Shown here one piece after another: positions 3,934-33,398 of a stretch of DNA of 41,327 nucleotides. The notes under the pieces were generated by a model. It was given only the letters and a program-made list of their open reading frames with translations. It made no database searches and was not told the DNA's origin. Each line of letters begins with the position of its first letter. Position 1 is the stretch's first letter. A program made the translations under genes and the position numbers. This DNA comes from Nitrospinota bacterium (GTDB taxonomy: Bacteria > UBA8248), in the NCBI GenBank assembly GCA_026706735.1, contig JAPOYD010000150.1, positions 1-41,327 of the forward strand, in the 5' to 3' direction.

Positions 3934-5511
3934 GTGAAACCACAAGACGCTGCAAAACTGTCCTTAAAGAATGTTTTAAAAGATGGCATTGATGATGTTT
4001 TTGAAAAACCCTTCGAACTCGATTTGATTCGCTCCAATCAAAAATTGCAAGAAGAAATAATAAAACGAATAACCAAATGTTTGAATGGGAAATCCTTTCA
4101 AGCACTTGCTATTGGCTCACCAATCTATATGCACAGGCCAAAGAGTAAACCTTTTGACTACAGACGATGTGCTTTGTTGGATCCAATTGATGCGATGAAA
4201 TATCTTGCATTGACTTTAATGGCTGCCGAAAAAATTGAATCAAGTCGCATTCCCCCCAATAGACGAAGGGTATTTTCATATCGTTTCAAACCACAAGGTC
4301 AAAACATATTTAATCAGAAACTCACTTATCAAGCTTTTCAAAAAAGACATTCACAAAAATTAAACGCTTCTAAAACACCGATTATCGTATACTGTGACAT
4401 TGCTAACTTTTATGATCGTCTAAATCTTCATCGGTTAGAGTCGGTACTTCACTCCATCGATATTGAGCCGTGGCTTATCAATACAATAAATGAGTTGTTA
4501 TTTTTTTGGTCCAACAGAGATTCTTATGGGCTTCCCGTAGGAGGTAATGCCAGCCGAATATTAGCAGAAGCCGCTCTAATTGAAGTTGACAATTTCCTGC
4601 TTGCGAGAGACGTGGATTTTATCCGGTTTGTAGATGATTATCGACTTTTTGCGCCAAACATAGAGATTGCTCACCATTGGCTAGTCCTTCTTATGGAAAG
4701 GCTTAGCATGGAAGGTCTTTCGATTAACTCTGGAAAGACCAGTATTGTTGATGGAGCAGAACTAAAAAAAGAACGAGAAGAAGAAACGACAGGGCCTGTC
4801 CGAATAATTGCTGGGTATGGGGGTTCTATTCCGACTAAATTTCGCCAGCCATCAAGCAGAGAAAAGGAAAGACTTGGTGATATTGATGTTGATGACGCAA
4901 TTGAGAAAGCAGCAGAGCAGACAATAATTACCGCAGATCAAATGAAGGATTTAATTAAAGCAATTGCCTATCAAGAACGCTATGAGGATATCCCTCGACT
5001 TATTAGGTTGCTAAAACGATATCCTCAATTTCTGCTTTTTTTTGTAGATATGTTGATTAAAAATGCTTCTGAAATTCCTGCAAACTTGAAAAATAAAACT
5101 AGAGATTTACTATCAAATTGGTTCAAAAAATTAGAACTGCAACCTGAGTTTTTATCCATTTCTTTTGCCAAGATTCTCACTGATGACAATTATTTAGATA
5201 AAGATATTGTCATAAACTATTTCCGAAATATGCGAAGAAACGCAGGTGCATATGTTGGGCGAGTCGTTATAGAGAAGCTAATTCCTCATTTATCTCGGGG
5301 AGAAGTATTGGAGTTAAGAAATTATTATGATAGAGCCAATGACTGGGAGCGAAGAGCAATCATTCATATGGTGAATGAAAGGCTTCCTGATACGGAAAAA
5401 AGACCTTGGCTCAAGAATGTGAAGAATCGCGAGCGAAAAAATCTTTTGTCTATTGAAATTTTTGAAAAGTTTGGAGAAAAGAAGAAAAGCAAAAGAAGCC
5501 GAAAAAGATAG
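3934..5511 (+). CDS. UG/Abi-type reverse transcriptase, putative anti-phage
   Basis: A 525-residue RNA-directed DNA polymerase. Seen directly: motif A at 153-163 with D155 (CDIANFYDRL), motif B at 199-212 (GLPVGGNASRILAE), motif C at 232-235 (FVDD, D234 and D235), and motif D at 261-269 (GLSINSGKT). All three catalytic aspartates are intact. Residues from about 300 to the end are mostly helical-looking and end in a Lys/Arg-rich tail. An RT followed by an alpha-helical repeat region is the layout of the UG/Abi reverse transcriptases, many of which are phage-defence proteins (AbiA, AbiK, DRT types). The N-terminal LSLKNVLKDGIDDVFEKPFE also resembles that group. The start is GTG 3934, because TAA at 3928-3930 closes the frame upstream; there is no strong Shine-Dalgarno sequence. 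The gene is strikingly AT-rich with Asn/Lys/Ile codons ending in A or T, against a GC-rich background, which suggests horizontal gain. No intron, HNH or maturase domain is visible. The exact UG class cannot be fixed here. Confidence 0.85.
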   Translation: MKPQDAAKLSLKNVLKDGIDDVFEKPFELDLIRSNQKLQEEIIKRITKCLNGKSFQALAIGSPIYMHRPKSKPFDYRRCALLDPIDAMKYLALTLMAAEKIESSRIPPNRRRVFSYRFKPQGQNIFNQKLTYQAFQKRHSQKLNASKTPIIVYCDIANFYDRLNLHRLESVLHSIDIEPWLINTINELLFFWSNRDSYGLPVGGNASRILAEAALIEVDNFLLARDVDFIRFVDDYRLFAPNIEIAHHWLVLLMERLSMEGLSINSGKTSIVDGAELKKEREEETTGPVRIIAGYGGSIPTKFRQPSSREKERLGDIDVDDAIEKAAEQTIITADQMKDLIKAIAYQERYEDIPRLIRLLKRYPQFLLFFVDMLIKNASEIPANLKNKTRDLLSNWFKKLELQPEFLSISFAKILTDDNYLDKDIVINYFRNMRRNAGAYVGRVVIEKLIPHLSRGEVLELRNYYDRANDWERRAIIHMVNERLPDTEKRPWLKNVKNRERKNLLSIEIFEKFGEKKKSKRSRKR

Positions 5512-23367: not shown

Positions 23368-24603
23368 TCAAGACCCGCTACCCGGCATCTCTCTCGCGCG
23401 CGCGAGGGCCGCCTCGATCACCCCCTTGAGGGGCACTCCGCTTTCCTCCGCAAGCCGCCTGCAGTCCTCGTATTCGGGTGCGAGGTTCGTGACGGCTCCC
23501 TCGAAGGTTCCTTTCTTGACGCGCACTACACCCCACGGCAATTCGACCTCCATCCATTCGCGCTCGGCCACCGCGCGATGCGTCGTGCGATGGCGAACGC
23601 CAAGGGTCGAAGTTTCGCGGAACAGGAAGCGGGTTAAGGCGTCTTGTTTCGCCAGGGGACTTAAAATCGTGAGCAGTTGCCCGGGCCTTCCCTTCTTGCC
23701 CGTCACGGGTATCGAGAATGCGTCGAGCGCGCCCGCCTTCAAGGCCCCTTCGATGACGTGGGGGAAAAGCTCAGGAGTCATATCGTCGATGTTGGCTTCG
23801 AGCACGGCGATGGTGCTAGGCGGCGCATCGCCTTCCTCACTCGTCTCGCTTTCGCCCAGAAAGGCGCGGACTACGTTGGGAGTGTCCGGCTGATCCTTAT
23901 CGCCCGCGCCGTAGCCCACCCGCGTTATCGTCATTTCGGGCACGGGGCCGAAAAATTCCGCGCTCTCGGTGAGCAGCAAGGCCCCCGTGGGCGTCAGAAC
24001 CTCGCCCTCGAGATTGTTCTGCGCTACGGGCACGCCTTCGAGCAGCTTCGCCGTCGCGGGTGCTGGAACCGGCATTCGCCCGTGAGCGCACTGCACGAAA
24101 CCGCTTCCCGTCGGCAGGGGAGAGGCCGCCACCCTCTCGATTCCCAGCATGTGGAGACCCAGGAAATAGCCCGTGACGTCGATAATCGAATCCACCGCGC
24201 CGACTTCATGGAAATGGATTTCGTCCAGCGAGACGCCGTGGATGCCCGCCTCCACGACGCCCAGGCGGTGAAAGGCTTGGATGGCGCGGCTCTTGGGAAC
24301 TTCCGGGATCGGCGCTTTTTCGAGGATTTCCCGAATCTGGCTGTAGGAGCGGCCATGATGGTGCGCGCCGTGGGGGCCTTCTCCTTCGGGATGATGGTGC
24401 GTTTCATGGGTAATGTTTACTCTGAACTTACTCGACGTAACTCCTTGTTTCAAAATGCTATCATTCGATAGCGAATAGCCTTCGATTTCCAGCTTCGCAA
24501 GCTCGCCTTCGAGGGCCGTGAAGTCCAGCCCCAGATCCAGCAGGGCGCCCACGAGCATATCCCCGGCAGCCCCCGCAAAGCAGTCGAAATAGATCGTTTT
24601 CAT
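23368..24603 (-). CDS. larC: nickel-pincer cofactor insertion protein LarC
   Basis: A 411-residue protein that inserts nickel into the pyridinium-bisthiocarboxylate precursor of the NPN cofactor. YFDCFAGAAGDMLVGALLDLG is the conserved start. A His-rich stretch (about residues 67-84, ETHHHPEGEGPHGAHHHG) fits nickel handling. Further matches are EIHFHEVGAVDSIIDVTGYF, VLTPTGALLLT and LEANIDDMTPE. In Lactobacillus, larC is split into larC1 and larC2 and read through by frameshift; here it is one continuous frame. Its ATG overlaps the larB stop (ATGA). Confidence 0.95.
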   Translation of the reverse strand: MKTIYFDCFAGAAGDMLVGALLDLGLDFTALEGELAKLEIEGYSLSNDSILKQGVTSSKFRVNITHETHHHPEGEGPHGAHHHGRSYSQIREILEKAPIPEVPKSRAIQAFHRLGVVEAGIHGVSLDEIHFHEVGAVDSIIDVTGYFLGLHMLGIERVAASPLPTGSGFVQCAHGRMPVPAPATAKLLEGVPVAQNNLEGEVLTPTGALLLTESAEFFGPVPEMTITRVGYGAGDKDQPDTPNVVRAFLGESETSEEGDAPPSTIAVLEANIDDMTPELFPHVIEGALKAGALDAFSIPVTGKKGRPGQLLTILSPLAKQDALTRFLFRETSTLGVRHRTTHRAVAEREWMEVELPWGVVRVKKGTFEGAVTNLAPEYEDCRRLAEESGVPLKGVIEAALARAREMPGSGS

Positions 24604-25358
24604 GAGGCGGCCGTCTGCTGGTTGATGAGGTGCGCCTGGCAGGCCGCGCCGAAGCCGTTGTCGATGTTCACCACGCTAAGCCCCGAAGCGCACGAGTTCA
24701 GCATGGCGAAAAGCGCCGTCAGTCCGCCCAGGTTCGCGCCGTAGCCCACAGACGTGGGCACCGCGATGACGGGGCAGGCCACCAGGCCTGCGACCACCGA
24801 GGGCAGGGCGCCCTCCATGCCCGCCACGGCGATGATGACGTTAGACTCGCGCAGGGTCTCGACTTCCGCCAGGAGGCGGTGCAGGCCCGCCACGCCCACG
24901 TCGTAGACGCGCGTCACCTCGGAGCCCAGAACCCGCGCGGTCACCGCCGCCTCCTCGGCGACGGGCATGTCGGAGGTGCCAGCGCAAACGACCGTGACGG
25001 AGCCGACCGGAGCGGGCGGAGTGCTGCACGGGATTTCGACGATGCGTGCGGTTTCGTGGTGGTTCGCGCGTGGTGAGAGTTCGAGCAGGGCTTCGGCCTG
25101 TTCCGCGCCTGCGTGAGTGACCATGACCGTCTGGTCTCTCGCCATCAGGCTCCTTGCGATTTCGACTACTTGTTCCCTGGTTTTCCCCGCGCCGAAGATG
25201 ACTTCTGGAAATCCGTTTCTGAGAGCGCGGTGGTGATCCACCCGCGTGTGGCCCAAGTCCTCGAAGGGCAGGTCCCGAAGACGCGCGGCGGCTTCATCAG
25301 GCGCGAGACGGCCCCCTTTCACCTGCTCGAGGAGTTCGAGGATGAGGTTCGGGTTCAC
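24600..25358 (-). CDS. larB: NPN cofactor synthase LarB
   Basis: A 252-residue enzyme that carboxylates and hydrolyses nicotinic acid adenine dinucleotide to start cofactor synthesis. The start is GTG 25358, overlapping the larE stop (GTGA); the frame extends upstream inside larE without homology. The PurE-like C-terminal half has [47 protein letters not shown] and [12 protein letters not shown]. The N-terminal part ([17 protein letters not shown]-like segment near residue 42-56) binds substrate. Translationally coupled on both sides. Confidence 0.95.
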
Positions 25359-26203
25359 GAGAGGATGAGAAGATCGGGCTTGCGCTCGGTCTTGAGTACT
25401 TCGTTCATGCTCCCCGAGCGGAAACCTTCGAGATCGATGGTCACATAGATGAAGCCGGCCTCTTTCATCTGGGCGATCACTTTCCTGGAAATCTCCCCAT
25501 CGACCAGCCGGGCAATGTCGGCTCTGGGCACCTCGATTCTGGCGACGTCGCCGTGGTGGCGCACCCGCAACTGGCGGAAGCCCAACTCCCGCAATCCGCT
25601 TTCCGCCTTTTCGACCTGGGCGATTTTCTCGGGCGTGATGCGGTCTCCGTAAGGGAACCGGCTCGAGAGGCACGCTTGCGCTGGCTTGTCCCAGGTGGGG
25701 AGGCCGAACGATTGCGAGAGGGTACGGATGTCCTCTTTCGTCATCCCGACTTCCATGAGCGGGCTTCGCACGCCCAGCTCCCGCGCCGCCTGCATCCCGG
25801 GCCTGTGGTCGCCCACGTCGTCGGCGTTCGAGCCGTCGACGATGACGGACGTCTTCTCTTGGGCCGCCACGCGGTTCAAGACGGTATAGAGTTCGTTCTT
25901 GCAGAAATAACAGCGGTTCGGCGGGTTGTTCCCGAACGATTCATCCGCTATTTCGTCGGTGTCCACGATGAGGTGGCGAATCCCGATTTGCGCTGCGAGT
26001 GTGCTGGATTCTTCGAGTTCGGATGCGGCCAGGGTGACGGAGCGGCCCGTGACGGCGAGCGCGCCTGAGCCCAGAGTGTCGTGGGCCACTTTGGCCAGAA
26101 AGGTGCTGTCCACGCCCGCAGAGAACGCGACCAGAACGCTCCCCATCTCCTTGAGGGTTTGTTCGAGTCTTTTCAGTTTCGTGTCGGGCTTCGCATCGCT
26201 CAA
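25355..26203 (-). CDS. larE: NPN cofactor sulfur transferase LarE, three-cysteine type
   Basis: A 282-residue PP-loop protein that installs the two sulfurs of the nickel-pincer cofactor. The ATP loop SAGVDSTF is at 28-35. Cysteines C98 and C101 (NRCYFCKNELY) and C178 (AQACLSSRFPYG) are present. C178 aligns with the sacrificial Cys176 of Lactobacillus LarE. LarEs with all three cysteines are thought to hold a [4Fe-4S] cluster and act catalytically, so this one is probably that type. The start is TTG 26203, six bases after GGAGG. First gene of larE-larB-larC-moaD-like. Confidence 0.95.
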   Translation of the reverse strand: MSDAKPDTKLKRLEQTLKEMGSVLVAFSAGVDSTFLAKVAHDTLGSGALAVTGRSVTLAASELEESSTLAAQIGIRHLIVDTDEIADESFGNNPPNRCYFCKNELYTVLNRVAAQEKTSVIVDGSNADDVGDHRPGMQAARELGVRSPLMEVGMTKEDIRTLSQSFGLPTWDKPAQACLSSRFPYGDRITPEKIAQVEKAESGLRELGFRQLRVRHHGDVARIEVPRADIARLVDGEISRKVIAQMKEAGFIYVTIDLEGFRSGSMNEVLKTERKPDLLILS

Positions 26204-30016: not shown

Positions 30017-30097
30017 GATGAATGTTTATAGGGAAGATGCTCGCGTCTGTCAAGCGCGAAACTCGAGGACTTGCAGCTGTTGGAGGAGAGCCTGTTC

Positions 30098-31099
30098 ATG
30101 AGGGAAAAAGGGGTCGTATTGTGGCATCAGGAGACCATCGACGCGCGCGAGGTTTCGCGATTCGCTAAGTGGTGCGAGGATTCAGGTCTGGATTCGCTCT
30201 GGATTCCAGAAACCTGGGTTCGCGACGGGAGCATTCTTATCGCCATGGCGGCGCAGGCGGTGGAGCATATCAAGCTGGGAGCCGCGGTGTTCAACATCTA
30301 CGGGAGAACGCCCGGCCTCATGGCCCAGACGGCGGCGGAGCTCGACGTGTTGAGCGATGGCCGCTTCCATCTGGGACTCGGCTCTAGCGGCCAAGTAGTG
30401 ATTGAGAACTGGCACGGGATTCCCTTCGGCAGTCCCCTGAAGCGCTCCCGGGAGATGGTCGAAGCCCTGCGCCAGGCGTTCCGGGGCGAGCGCGTGAAAC
30501 TGGACGGTGAAATCTACCGGATGAGCGGCTTCAAGCTCAGGCGAAAGCCGGTGCAGGAGCGCCTGCCCATCTATCTGGGCTCGAACGGCCCGAACTATAC
30601 GAGGCTGACCGGGGAGATAGCAGACGGTTGGATTCCTTTCTGCATCCCGTTTTCTAGAACAAGGGATGCGCTAAAATTCCTGGAAGAGGGCGCCGAATCG
30701 GCGGGTAGGGCGATCTCCGAAATTGACGTGGCGCCTTTCGTATACACGGCGCCTTTTGACGATATCGACCGCGCCCGCGCACTCGTGAAGCCCGAACTGG
30801 GCTTCTACATCGCCGCGATGGGCGACTACTACCAAGCCCAGCTCACGCGCTGGGGCTACGGGGAAGACGCCGACAACATCCGCGCGGCCTGGCGGAAGGG
30901 CGGCCGCAGGGCAGCGGGAGAGGCGCTTTCTGATGAACTTGTGGATGACCTCGCCATCTGCGGCCCCAAGTCCAGATGCAACGAAATGCTGGCCGCTCTG
31001 AGGGAAATGGGCGTCACGCAGCCGCTTTTCCGGATCCCCGACGAGACGCCCGAAGAAGACGTGAAGCGTGCGCTTGGGACATTGGGAGAACTCGACTAG
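30098..31099 (+). CDS. LLM-class (F420/FMN-dependent) oxidoreductase
   Basis: A 333-residue luciferase-like monooxygenase/F420 family TIM barrel. The start ATG 30098 is favoured by GGAGGAG about 10 bases before it; an earlier start at 30071 lacks an RBS. Seen: SGLDSLWIPETWVRDG, LGAAVFNIYGRTPGLMAQTAAELDVLSDGRFHLGLGSSG and ELADGWIP-like (EIADGWIPFC). The order resembles methylene-H4MPT reductase-like and F420 enzymes more than bacterial luciferase. The cofactor (F420 or FMN) cannot be decided here, and no F420 biosynthesis genes are in view. Confidence 0.82.
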   Translation: MREKGVVLWHQETIDAREVSRFAKWCEDSGLDSLWIPETWVRDGSILIAMAAQAVEHIKLGAAVFNIYGRTPGLMAQTAAELDVLSDGRFHLGLGSSGQVVIENWHGIPFGSPLKRSREMVEALRQAFRGERVKLDGEIYRMSGFKLRRKPVQERLPIYLGSNGPNYTRLTGEIADGWIPFCIPFSRTRDALKFLEEGAESAGRAISEIDVAPFVYTAPFDDIDRARALVKPELGFYIAAMGDYYQAQLTRWGYGEDADNIRAAWRKGGRRAAGEALSDELVDDLAICGPKSRCNEMLAALREMGVTQPLFRIPDETPEEDVKRALGTLGELD

Positions 31100-31103
31100 C
31101 AAA

Positions 31104-31628
31104 CTATGCGGGGTATCGCCCCCAACCTGCGATGTGGCCCCTCAGATAACAGATTTGTCCGATGTGCGAGAGGTGATCGCCGAGAAACCTTCCCAGGACC
31201 AGGCCGAGCTTGATGGGCTTCTTGGTGTAGAAATCGATTTCTTCCCGGTCGAGGTCCGCTGCGCTCAAGCCCGAGAGGCAGGGAAGCGTTTGCTCGCGTA
31301 CCGCTTCAAAATAGCCCATTAGGGCGTCCTTGCTGACTTCAAGGGCCAGGACTTGTTCGAGGGTGAACCCCACGCCCGTGCATTCGGCGTCGGGTTCCAT
31401 GCCGAACCGCTCGTGCCACTTCCCCTCTATCCAGAGTTCCGGGGTTCCGCCGAGGAACGAAAACGTCCTGTCCTCAAATCGCGTCATGTGCCAGATGAGC
31501 CAGCCCATGGGGTTGTCGTTCGGGCCGGGTTGAAACATGAGGTCTTCATCGGTGACGTCTTCCATGACCTCTCTGAGCCGCATACCGTAGGCTTCGAGGC
31601 GCTCCTTGATGATTGTCGGCGCATCCAT
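31104..31628 (-). CDS. DinB-like metal-binding four-helix protein
   Basis: A 174-residue protein of the DinB/YfiT-like superfamily. It has the helix with WLIWHMTRFEDRTFSF and the C-terminal DHLSHIGQICYLRGHI, which supply the metal-binding histidines. Many relatives are thiol transferases using bacillithiol or mycothiol, and others are of unknown role, so no reaction is assigned. It is convergent with the LLM gene (4 bases apart) and downstream of the selenoprotein gene, with a terminator between. Confidence 0.8.
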   Translation of the reverse strand: MDAPTIIKERLEAYGMRLREVMEDVTDEDLMFQPGPNDNPMGWLIWHMTRFEDRTFSFLGGTPELWIEGKWHERFGMEPDAECTGVGFTLEQVLALEVSKDALMGYFEAVREQTLPCLSGLSAADLDREEIDFYTKKPIKLGLVLGRFLGDHLSHIGQICYLRGHIAGWGRYPA

Positions 31629-31658
31629 TCCGGATTTCCTCCGTTCGTTACAGAAACG

Positions 31659-31690
31659 AAAAACGCCCCTCGAAAACAGGGGCGCTTTTC
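31659..31690 (-). terminator. intrinsic terminator of the selenoprotein gene
   Basis: CGCCCCT (31664-31670) and AGGGGCG (31678-31684) form a 7-bp stem with a 7-base loop. On the - strand it is followed by TTTTTCG. It lies 14 bases past the stop of the deiodinase-like gene and before the DinB-like gene, which is likely transcribed separately. Confidence 0.85.
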
Positions 31691-31704
31691 AAAGACGAAC
31701 TTCG

Positions 31705-32397
31705 CTAGATAGCCGTGCCGGCGCGTGCGGTGAAGACGGTGTGCTCCATTTTGGGCATCCCCTCGAACTTAGGGTCCTCGTTCACCATCTTGGCCAGATA
31801 TTCATCCACGTGCTCCGCATTGGACCAGGTGCACTTGTAGGCCACCTTCCCGTCCTTGCCGATGAGCCAGATGGTGTTCGGCAGGTCTCCGAGCATGGCG
31901 TGCACCTTCTGGTCCATCTCGTCGACCAGGATGTTGGTTTCCATGTTCTTTATCTCGGCCAGCTTCTGGGCATAGCTCTGCTTGTGCTCGTAGGATTCGT
32001 GGTTTCTGATCTCTGGAAATCCGCGCTCGCCCGCGTGGGGTTCCCTCACGTAGAGATTGAAGACGACCACGTCGCGGTCCGCGTATTTTTCCTGCAACTC
32101 CTCATAAAACGGCACCTGCCGCCTGTATGGCGGTCACGTGATGGCGCCCGTGGTGATCACCACGTATTTCTTGCCCAGATAATCCGACATGCGGTGGGTG
32201 TTTCCGTGAATGTCCTTGAGTTCGAAGTCGGGGAAGGGGGTGCCGGGAGGTAGTACGTTCGGAAATTTCTCATAAAAACTCTTGACCCGTTTGCTCGTGA
32301 CGAGTTTGATGGTCTTCCATAGATTCAGATACTGCCAGGACCAAAAACCCGCCAGCGGCCCCCAGGGTTTCGGGACGGAATCGTTAGCCGGCCTCAT
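31705..32397 (-). CDS. deiodinase-like thioredoxin-fold selenoprotein (Sec at UGA)
   Basis: One 230-residue gene read through an in-frame TGA at 32136-32134 (codon 88). Without read-through it would be called as an 87-residue frame (to 32134) and a 136-residue frame (32115-31705) in the same phase. Around the TGA the protein reads VVITTGAIT-U-PPYRRQVPFY, the T-U-P-P centre known from iodothyronine deiodinases and related thioredoxin-fold selenoproteins. The downstream part continues the fold: VFNLYVREPHAGERG (deiodinases have a similar Glu-x-His stretch), then NILVDEMDQKVHAMLGDLPN and IWLIGKDGKVAYK. Before the TGA, PPGTPFPDFELKDIHGNTHR matches AhpC/TSA-like folds. A SECIS-like hairpin directly follows. 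GGAG precedes ATG 32397. The substrate is unknown; bacterial homologues need not act on iodothyronines. Confidence 0.87.
32104..32136 (-). promoter_or_regulatory. bacterial SECIS-like element
   Basis: Read on the - strand from the UGA. CCGCC-ATACA-GGCGG can form an outer hairpin, and CGGC-AGGU-GCCG (32121-32110) forms a hairpin with an AGGU loop. The AGGU lies 20-23 bases from the U of UGA, close to the AGGUCU loop of the E. coli fdhF SECIS (about 21-24). SelB recognises such a loop. These stems share bases and cannot both form. Confidence 0.6.
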
Positions 32398-32594
32398 ATA
32401 AGGAAACTCCTCTGCGATGTGCGCTGAATTGTATGATGGCGTATGCCCAGTTCTCTTGTTTACCCAATCGCCGGATGAAAAACAACCGCCCGAACGTGGG
32501 ATCGAAAGACGGTTCCCGGAGGGCGAATTTCTTGAATTTTTTTCACTTTATATTTCAAATTCTAATGCCGTTTATCTAAAGCAGATTGTAGGAA

Positions 32595-33398
32595 TTAAAA
32601 ATCGAACGACAGTTGCGGCTCTTTCTCCGCCGAAGCGTCTTTTGGGGGATGATTCGAAGAAACATTCTCTTCTCCTTGGGTGCGTGGCGGTTTTGTCGGT
32701 GGTTTCTTTGCGCCGGCATCTCTTGATGGTGGAGAAGCGGACACTCTGGATTCGCCCGGAAGGGGCCAACTCGGATCTCTCGCTTCGGAGCGGGCTGCCC
32801 CGCTTGGTTGTTCCCGATTCTGATAATCGTTTCTCGACTTGGCGTCTGCGGCCGCCATTTCAAACGCCCTCGTCAAATTTTCAGGTTTTTGCCAGGCGGC
32901 CTCTTGCGGGGATGCCCGCTCCGCGCCCTTCATGCGCATGAGTTTGGTCTTGAGGTCCTCGATGCGCGCGTAAAAGCCGGGGCTGTGGGGCGTGGAGGGG
33001 ATTCGGAGCAGTTTTCGGTCGATGTGGTGCATGAGTTCGTGGATGAGGGTATCCAGAAACGTCTTGCCCGCGACGACCTGCTTGCGAATCGACGTGAGGT
33101 TGGCGATTTCGATTACCGCGCTGTCGCAGCGATAGACGCCGTAGAGCTTGTAGGCGAGTTTTCCGCCGCGCAGCTTGTGGGGTTGCCGCTCTGCGAACAC
33201 GCGCAGGTGCGCGGGGGAGATTTTGAGGCTGCGACAGATGTTGTCGAGCAGTTTCTGGCCCAGCGCTTCGCGCTCTTTTGCGCTCGTGGACGCGATGAGT
33301 TTTCCGGTGAGTTCGCGTTCCCGGGATGCGGGTTGGTATTCGAGTGCCGGGATTTTGTTGGAGCGGGTGAAGTCCGGCGTATCGCGGCGCCTGCCCAT
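32595..33398 (-). CDS. SprT-like zinc metalloprotein
   Basis: A 267-residue protein. Residues about 40-150 resemble the SprT/Spartan domain: HELMHH with H120, E121 and H124, and a third candidate ligand H138 in STPHSPGFYARI. The C-terminal third is low complexity (Pro/Ser/Lys/Glu-rich) and ends EPQLSFDF. That end resembles the bacterial sliding-clamp motif (QLxLF/QxxLxF), which would mirror the clamp-binding motifs of Spartan proteases; this is only a hint. It may handle DNA-protein crosslinks or unfolded substrate. It is on the same strand as the selenoprotein gene but 197 bases away. No RBS is obvious, so the start is unsure. Confidence 0.75.
   Translation of the reverse strand: MGRRRDTPDFTRSNKIPALEYQPASRERELTGKLIASTSAKEREALGQKLLDNICRSLKISPAHLRVFAERQPHKLRGGKLAYKLYGVYRCDSAVIEIANLTSIRKQVVAGKTFLDTLIHELMHHIDRKLLRIPSTPHSPGFYARIEDLKTKLMRMKGAERASPQEAAWQKPENLTRAFEMAAADAKSRNDYQNREQPSGAARSEARDPSWPLPGESRVSASPPSRDAGAKKPPTKPPRTQGEENVSSNHPPKDASAEKEPQLSFDF

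Follow-up and report, generated by a model that had tools for sequence, protein, structure and literature searches.

Bacterial relatives of the iodothyronine deiodinases, the animal enzymes that take iodine off thyroid hormone, were reported in 2005, when Zhang et al. described deiodinase-like proteins in Sec and Cys forms together with a bacterial SECIS element (PMC1088965); the table row for the family gives 4 and 6, which we take as the Sec and Cys counts. A 2008 table row reads 22, 12 and 21 and gives no motif; the 22 is taken here as the number of Sec forms (PMC2398784). In the lists of two reviews the deiodinase-like family appears as UxxC (PMC13188914, PMC9312934). For the vertebrate enzymes, a proton relay of Ser127, Thr129, Tyr157, Glu160, His162 and His182 has been proposed in Dio2 (PMC11592359), and a proximal Cys is described at Cys124 of DIO1 and Cys168 of DIO3, the former being needed for reduction by glutathione (PMC9141512).

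The gene analysed here lies in a window of 41,327 nucleotides, the whole stretch of Nitrospinota DNA under study. A preliminary description took deiodinase-like selenoproteins to be known in bacteria, as the 2005 report bears out, and called this one probably new. That word is too strong, the 2005 paper (PMC1088965) having already described such selenoproteins along with their bacterial SECIS. The less familiar part is the Cys-poor, multi-copy version within one lineage, and a limited literature search by title found no publication title on this lineage's deiodinase-like selenoproteins. The gene occupies one minus-strand frame, from ATG to TAG, whose sole in-frame TGA is codon 88; with UGA as Sec, the product has 230 residues and Sec88 falls within TTGAIT-U-PPYRRQ. 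The features of the gene are as follows.

31705..32397, minus strand: complete selenoprotein gene, 230 residues with Sec88 (frame; Pfam T4_deiodinase 40.8 bits, AhpC-TSA 50.1)
32134..32136, minus strand: in-frame UGA, in all likelihood read as selenocysteine, codon 88 (kept in 38/38 core family copies)
32407..32412, minus strand: GAGGAG, likely ribosome-binding site, 9 bases 5' of the ATG (read by eye)
31657..31691, minus strand: intrinsic-terminator-like stem and T run, just past the stop codon (terminator scan)

The terminator-like stem has weak statistics, with two such elements found against 1.9 expected by shuffling, and a promoter scan returned none. The preliminary reading of two same-phase frames separated by a single TGA, with no frameshift needed, and of the joined motif is confirmed by this frame and its translation. 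Its expectation of a two-fragment annotation also holds, in that mechanical ORF calling splits the gene into pieces of 87 and 136 aa. We consider it close to certain, judging from the sequence, that the gene encodes one deiodinase-like selenoprotein with UGA codon 88 decoded as Sec, by which two apparent gene fragments become one conserved enzyme.

Two fragments would also be left if the gene were dead or the TGA had been misread in sequencing, and the evidence on this point comes from relatives. The host assembly comprises 3.79 Mb in 191 contigs (93.7% complete, 3.2% contamination). A PF00837 search of this genome missed the window gene and returned a single paralogue, with matches in 0 of 14 control genomes. 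This second Sec deiodinase-like gene (L001:1390-2040, G000:C81) has a UGA at the same place and no Cys, and its product is 44% identical to the window protein. Searching with an alignment of the two gave 46 matches in 20 of 61 genomes. Within the family of the window's genome (18 genomes, its own included) there were 42 matches, consisting of two fragments that stop before the UGA site, a tandem pair in G011 and 38 core copies from 17 genomes. All 38 core copies have TGA at the site with homology on both sides; one of them is a few codons short, stopping at a TAA (G017:C58), and another is cut by a contig end (G010:C325). Four of the 17 genomes hold one core copy, five hold two and eight hold three. 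When the aligned sequences were sorted by eye into a window type, a C81 type and a third type, the C81 type was seen in all six same-genus relatives and the third in five of the six. The public assemblies among the same-genus genomes are MPNJ01 bin107 (G001), JAJDYR01 (G002), JAPPHK01 (G004) and WTGD01 (G006), three of the four being named Nitrospinae or Nitrospinota.

A sequencing error at the TGA can be dismissed because the UGA recurs in every core copy, from 17 genomes that include these four separate public assemblies. Moreover, the region 3' of the UGA is under purifying selection: for the window type, dN/dS was 0.098 before the UGA and 0.072 after it (15 pairs of 6 genes), and the C81 type gave 0.203 and 0.071 (28 pairs of 8 genes), the value after the UGA omitting 12 codons from the UGA on. 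With the same codon conserved throughout and dN/dS of about 0.07 downstream, two dead fragments are an exceedingly improbable account of the gene, and the claim that homology continues across the UGA stands.

More distant homologues were sought in a wider search of 386 genomes, with at most seven candidates scored per genome, in which at least 31 genomes had a match. Outside the family there were at least 15 matches in at least 13 genomes; among them, 11 have TGA at the site and four do not, with Cys (L173, L177), Asp (L175) or Ser (L176) in its place. Homologues with Cys at codon 88, for which the preliminary description had suggested looking, thus exist at a distance. The two tandem deiodinase-like genes in G011 (L064, G011:C1) are distant members; the site is a UGA in one of them, and the other reads SSDW there, which is neither Sec nor Cys. 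Viral contigs scanned for GAIT-UGA-PP(Y/F) gave two matches, both set aside as chance, since inspection by eye showed no in-frame deiodinase homology on either flank.

The frame is open when UGA is read, which would also be the case if the organism used UGA for a standard amino acid, as codes 4 and 25 do. However, UGA is the stop codon of 12 of the 24 main ORFs of the window (picked by eye), and seven deiodinase-like genes of relatives (L024, L025, L029, L032, L042, L043 and L061) appear to stop at a UGA where the family match ends. With tRNA-Sec and SelB present as well, reassignment is exceedingly unlikely.

The machinery for selenocysteine insertion, which the preliminary description had named as a check, was found in the same genome. 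SelB is full length (382.9 bits; cut-off 242), SelD scores 334.3 bits (cut-off 125), and tRNA-Sec scores 75.8 bits (gathering 47), with anticodon tca according to ARAGORN and 12 further matches under gathering. SelA is represented by an ORF upstream of SelB that runs off the locus edge; this 192-residue C-terminal part matches SelA 267-454 of 455, with 221.6 bits against a whole-protein cut-off of 267.9. The contig that carries SelB has a lower G+C than the window (0.486 vs 0.585), and contamination was considered as its source; we rejected this because the SelB is 91-95% identical to the SelB of the five same-genus genomes compared. The SelD of this genome (L145, G000:C112) has an in-frame UGA (U27, in GGUG) and is, on its sequence, itself a selenoprotein.

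Across the 19 genomes compared, tRNA-Sec was found in 18 and was missing in G014. SelB reached E 1e-50 in 17 genomes and scored over cut-off in 16 (missing in G004 and G013, partial in G014), and SelD was over cut-off in 15 (missing in G004, G010, G011 and G014); these 15 SelD genes also hold one TGA, L145 being the one that was read. The assemblies are incomplete, yet G011, which lacks a SelD hit, is listed as 96% complete. Among the 14 control genomes, two were over cut-off for SelB, two for SelD and five for tRNA-Sec, so that the tRNA-Sec family alone is weak evidence. In two genomes, a deiodinase-like gene and tRNA-Sec are about 4.5 kb apart (G011:C28 and G013:C154).

A hairpin follows the UGA, with positions counted here from the U of UGA as nt 1.

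32107..32124, minus strand: SECIS-like hairpin, nt 13-30, 7 pairs counting G-U (folding and comparison)
32114-32117, minus strand: hairpin loop, AGGU (folding)

The hairpin with its AGGU loop, which had been claimed to follow at the SECIS-typical distance, is thus present, although the window sequence taken by itself does not exceed chance (z -1.07, with 27 of 200 dinucleotide shuffles folding equally well). That it exceeds chance follows from comparative evidence, not from the window sequence alone. In a hairpin at nt 10-36, a G-bearing loop covers nt 22 in 42 of 43 distinct genes; in the exception, L064, the loop spans nt 23-27. When compared with synonymous recodings drawn from the codon use of each gene itself, the 43 genes had a mean z of -2.27, with p < 0.05 in 28 and z < -1.5 in 39; because the genes are related, these are not 43 independent tests. 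In contrast, 809 control windows of the same genes had a mean z of -0.09, with 8.5% below -1.5. Codon usage shows a similar constraint: codon 93 (Arg) is CGG in 38 of 38 core copies, although CGG accounts for 88 of the 376 other Arg codons of these genes, and codon 95 reads GTG in 35 copies, the other three having TTG (Leu). Copies with Pro96 form a 4-nt loop, and in those with Ala96 the stem lies one register along with a 5-nt loop. Over 45 nt, several copies prefer another best fold. Pair counting on 11 of the 29 distinct hairpin sequences, chosen by us and all Pro96, with the seven Ala96 sequences of the other register omitted, gave one pair with double changes; covariation was weak and the score was higher at register +1. 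This weakness arises because coding constraint fixes most stem positions. An Rfam scan of window positions 31000-33000 returned just a chance miRNA match under the gathering score. In sum, folding after the UGA, another of the suggested checks, revealed a conserved fold that passes the recoding control.

A low-level, non-selenium protein produced when an ordinary near-cognate tRNA reads the UGA is contradicted by no direct protein evidence. Nonetheless, this account is very unlikely in view of the SECIS-like hairpin, the Sec machinery and the position itself, which is occupied by Sec in the deiodinases and by Cys in L173 and L177. The machinery, the conserved UGA, the Cys homologues and the conserved fold instead support the earlier proposal that the host decodes UGA as Sec. 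In this model, SelB bound to the hairpin just 3' of the UGA would deliver Sec-tRNA(Sec) at codon 88, and the ribosome would read through rather than terminate.

The window protein is assigned to more than one thioredoxin-like family. In Pfam, AhpC-TSA (50.1), Redoxin (43.7) and T4_deiodinase (PF00837; 40.8, cut-off 27) are all over cut-off, and for two paralogues T4_deiodinase is best, at 60.2 and 75.3. The NCBIfam deiodinase family protein model NF038285 gives 77.6, far below its curated cut-off of 250. By sequence, the deiodinases come first: a 30-member profile matched DIO3 (E 2.6e-19) and DIO2 (9.4e-17) ahead of other PDB chains, with ResA next (2.1e-12), and G-x-x-T-U-P-P aligns with both, in agreement with the T-U-P-P redox centre noted in the preliminary description. 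An alignment of the gene products has 30 of the 43 distinct genes as rows, near-identical and some partial ones being omitted. The residues that do not vary in any of its 30 rows include Gly84, Thr87, Sec88, Tyr116, Glu119, His121, Asp159, Gly170, Pro173 and Trp191. In the DIO alignment, read by eye, all Dio2 relay residues but Ser have counterparts in the window protein.

32137..32139, minus strand: Thr87, equivalent to Dio2 Thr129 of the proton relay (30/30; DIO2/DIO3 alignment)
32050..32052, minus strand: Tyr116, equivalent to Dio2 Tyr157 (30/30; DIO alignment)
32041..32043, minus strand: Glu119, equivalent to Dio2 Glu160 (30/30; DIO alignment)
32035..32037, minus strand: His121, equivalent to Dio2 His162 and Dio3 His202 (30/30; DIO alignment)
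31999..32001, minus strand: His133, equivalent to Dio2 His182 (26/30; DIO alignment)

The relay Ser position is Ala85 in the window protein and Ala in 26 of 30 rows. At the position of the proximal Cys, Ile86 is found in 26 rows and Cys in none of the 30; DIO2 also lacks this Cys, its aligned row reading GSATC. Position 88 aside, Cys is entirely absent from 19 of the 26 family members in the alignment. The position of the FERLY Arg of DIO3, which we take to be Arg275, holds Met, Phe, Thr, Ser or Gly. Structure comparison did not separate the deiodinases from other thioredoxin-fold proteins: with an AlphaFold2 model of mean pLDDT 88.2, VIA Z values were 17.2 for DIO2 and 16.9 for DIO3, tied with other thioredoxin-fold chains at 16.8 and 16.4, and Foldseek placed ResA-type chains first, DIO3 12th and DIO2 23rd. 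The predicted model is thus of a thioredoxin/peroxiredoxin-type fold that would carry a deiodinase site, Thr87-Sec88-Pro-Pro.

The surroundings of the gene offer no clear partner among the neighbours in 12 compared loci, some of them short. A DinB/mycothiol-transferase-like gene occurs in 5 of the 12, all same-genus, and a luciferase-like gene in 7. In the window, the former (31104-31628; NF047843 119.8 bits, under the cut-off of 170) lies just downstream of the selenoprotein gene on the same strand, behind the terminator-like stem, and is a possible source of thiol chemistry. A luciferase-like monooxygenase (PF00296) is found near both the window gene (30071-31099) and the C81 gene (L096:4565-5686). 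Elsewhere in the window, a conserved ORF at 32595-33398 contains HELMHH, presumably a zinc-protease-like motif, and no Pfam family scored over cut-off on it (WLM 13.6 bits, cut-off 26); three minus-strand ORFs at 23368-26203, the last of which was scanned and gave weak PP-loop matches, look to us like LarC, LarB and LarE of the nickel-pincer cofactor; and a reverse transcriptase at 3934-5511 closely matches Drt8 of PADLOC (E 1.8e-121), which belongs to the defence reverse transcriptases.

The family suggests that the protein is a redox enzyme. The Sec selenolate would most likely attack the electrophilic atom of a small substrate, either a ring halogen or a peroxide or disulfide, and Tyr116, Glu119, His121 and His133 may then act as a proton relay, by analogy with animal deiodinases, and supply a proton. 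The oxidised selenium would be reduced by an outside thiol, which is likely because Ile86 occupies the proximal-Cys position and most aligned members have no Cys. We therefore lean towards a thiol-dependent Sec reductase. Of the two classes of substrate, the peroxide type is a plausible choice that stops short of being probable: a selenoperoxidase, or a disulfide or selenenyl reductase of peroxiredoxin type, would fit the AhpC-TSA and Redoxin matches above cut-off and the roughly equal structural closeness of peroxiredoxins and ResA-like proteins, but not the T-U active site and Tyr-Glu-His set of deiodinases or the lack of a conserved resolving Cys. The halogen type is a more doubtful guess, namely that the enzyme works by the deiodinase mechanism as a reductive dehalogenase whose substrates are halogenated phenols or tyrosines in marine sponges. 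The invariance of the deiodinase relay residues (30/30) and the ranking of DIO2/3 as best by sequence are in keeping with it. Furthermore, the same-genus G001 comes from the sponge Aplysina aerophoba, the binning paper for which lists MPNJ00000000 as bin107, Nitrospinae (PMC5649159), and brominated sponge metabolites are described as selecting debrominating bacteria (PMC12203066). On the other hand, the FERLY Arg is replaced, no halogen-metabolism neighbour was recognised among the genes looked at, and the sponge habitat comes from one named relative. In its fullest form, that sponge-associated Nitrospinota use two or three Sec deiodinase-type enzymes, which lack a conserved Cys and are reduced by an outside thiol, to debrominate or deiodinate halogenated phenols of the host reductively, the proposal is rather unlikely. 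The proposed route, if true, would be unlike that of the corrinoid reductive dehalogenases.

Compared with peroxiredoxin/AhpC-TSA and ResA-type oxidoreductases, the window protein shares the fold and an AhpC-TSA match above cut-off but has no CxxC and no conserved resolving Cys, and T-U stands in place of the peroxiredoxin motif. With the vertebrate deiodinases (4tr3, 9h48) it has in common G-x-x-T-U-P-P, crystallised there with Cys for Sec, and the relay Tyr, Glu, His and His. It differs from them in having Ile86 for the proximal Cys, Ala85 for Ser and no FERLY Arg, in a 5-residue gap in the inter-His loop when aligned with DIO3, and in a hairpin of bacterial type that lies within the coding sequence; thyroid hormone is not expected here. 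A form that retains the relay residues but is poor in Cys offers a clean way to ask whether a deiodinase site removes halogens outside animals. With the bacterial deiodinase-like selenoproteins described so far, the window protein shares T4_deiodinase above cut-off, Sec at an in-frame UGA, a bacterial-type hairpin with an apical-loop G, and Cys homologues elsewhere. Here, however, there are few or no cysteines, the active site reads U-P-P-Y/F without the Cys of UxxC, and 13 of 17 genomes of one family carry two or three Sec copies. This documents several Sec-type deiodinase-family genes within single genomes of an uncultured lineage that has at least one sponge-dwelling member.
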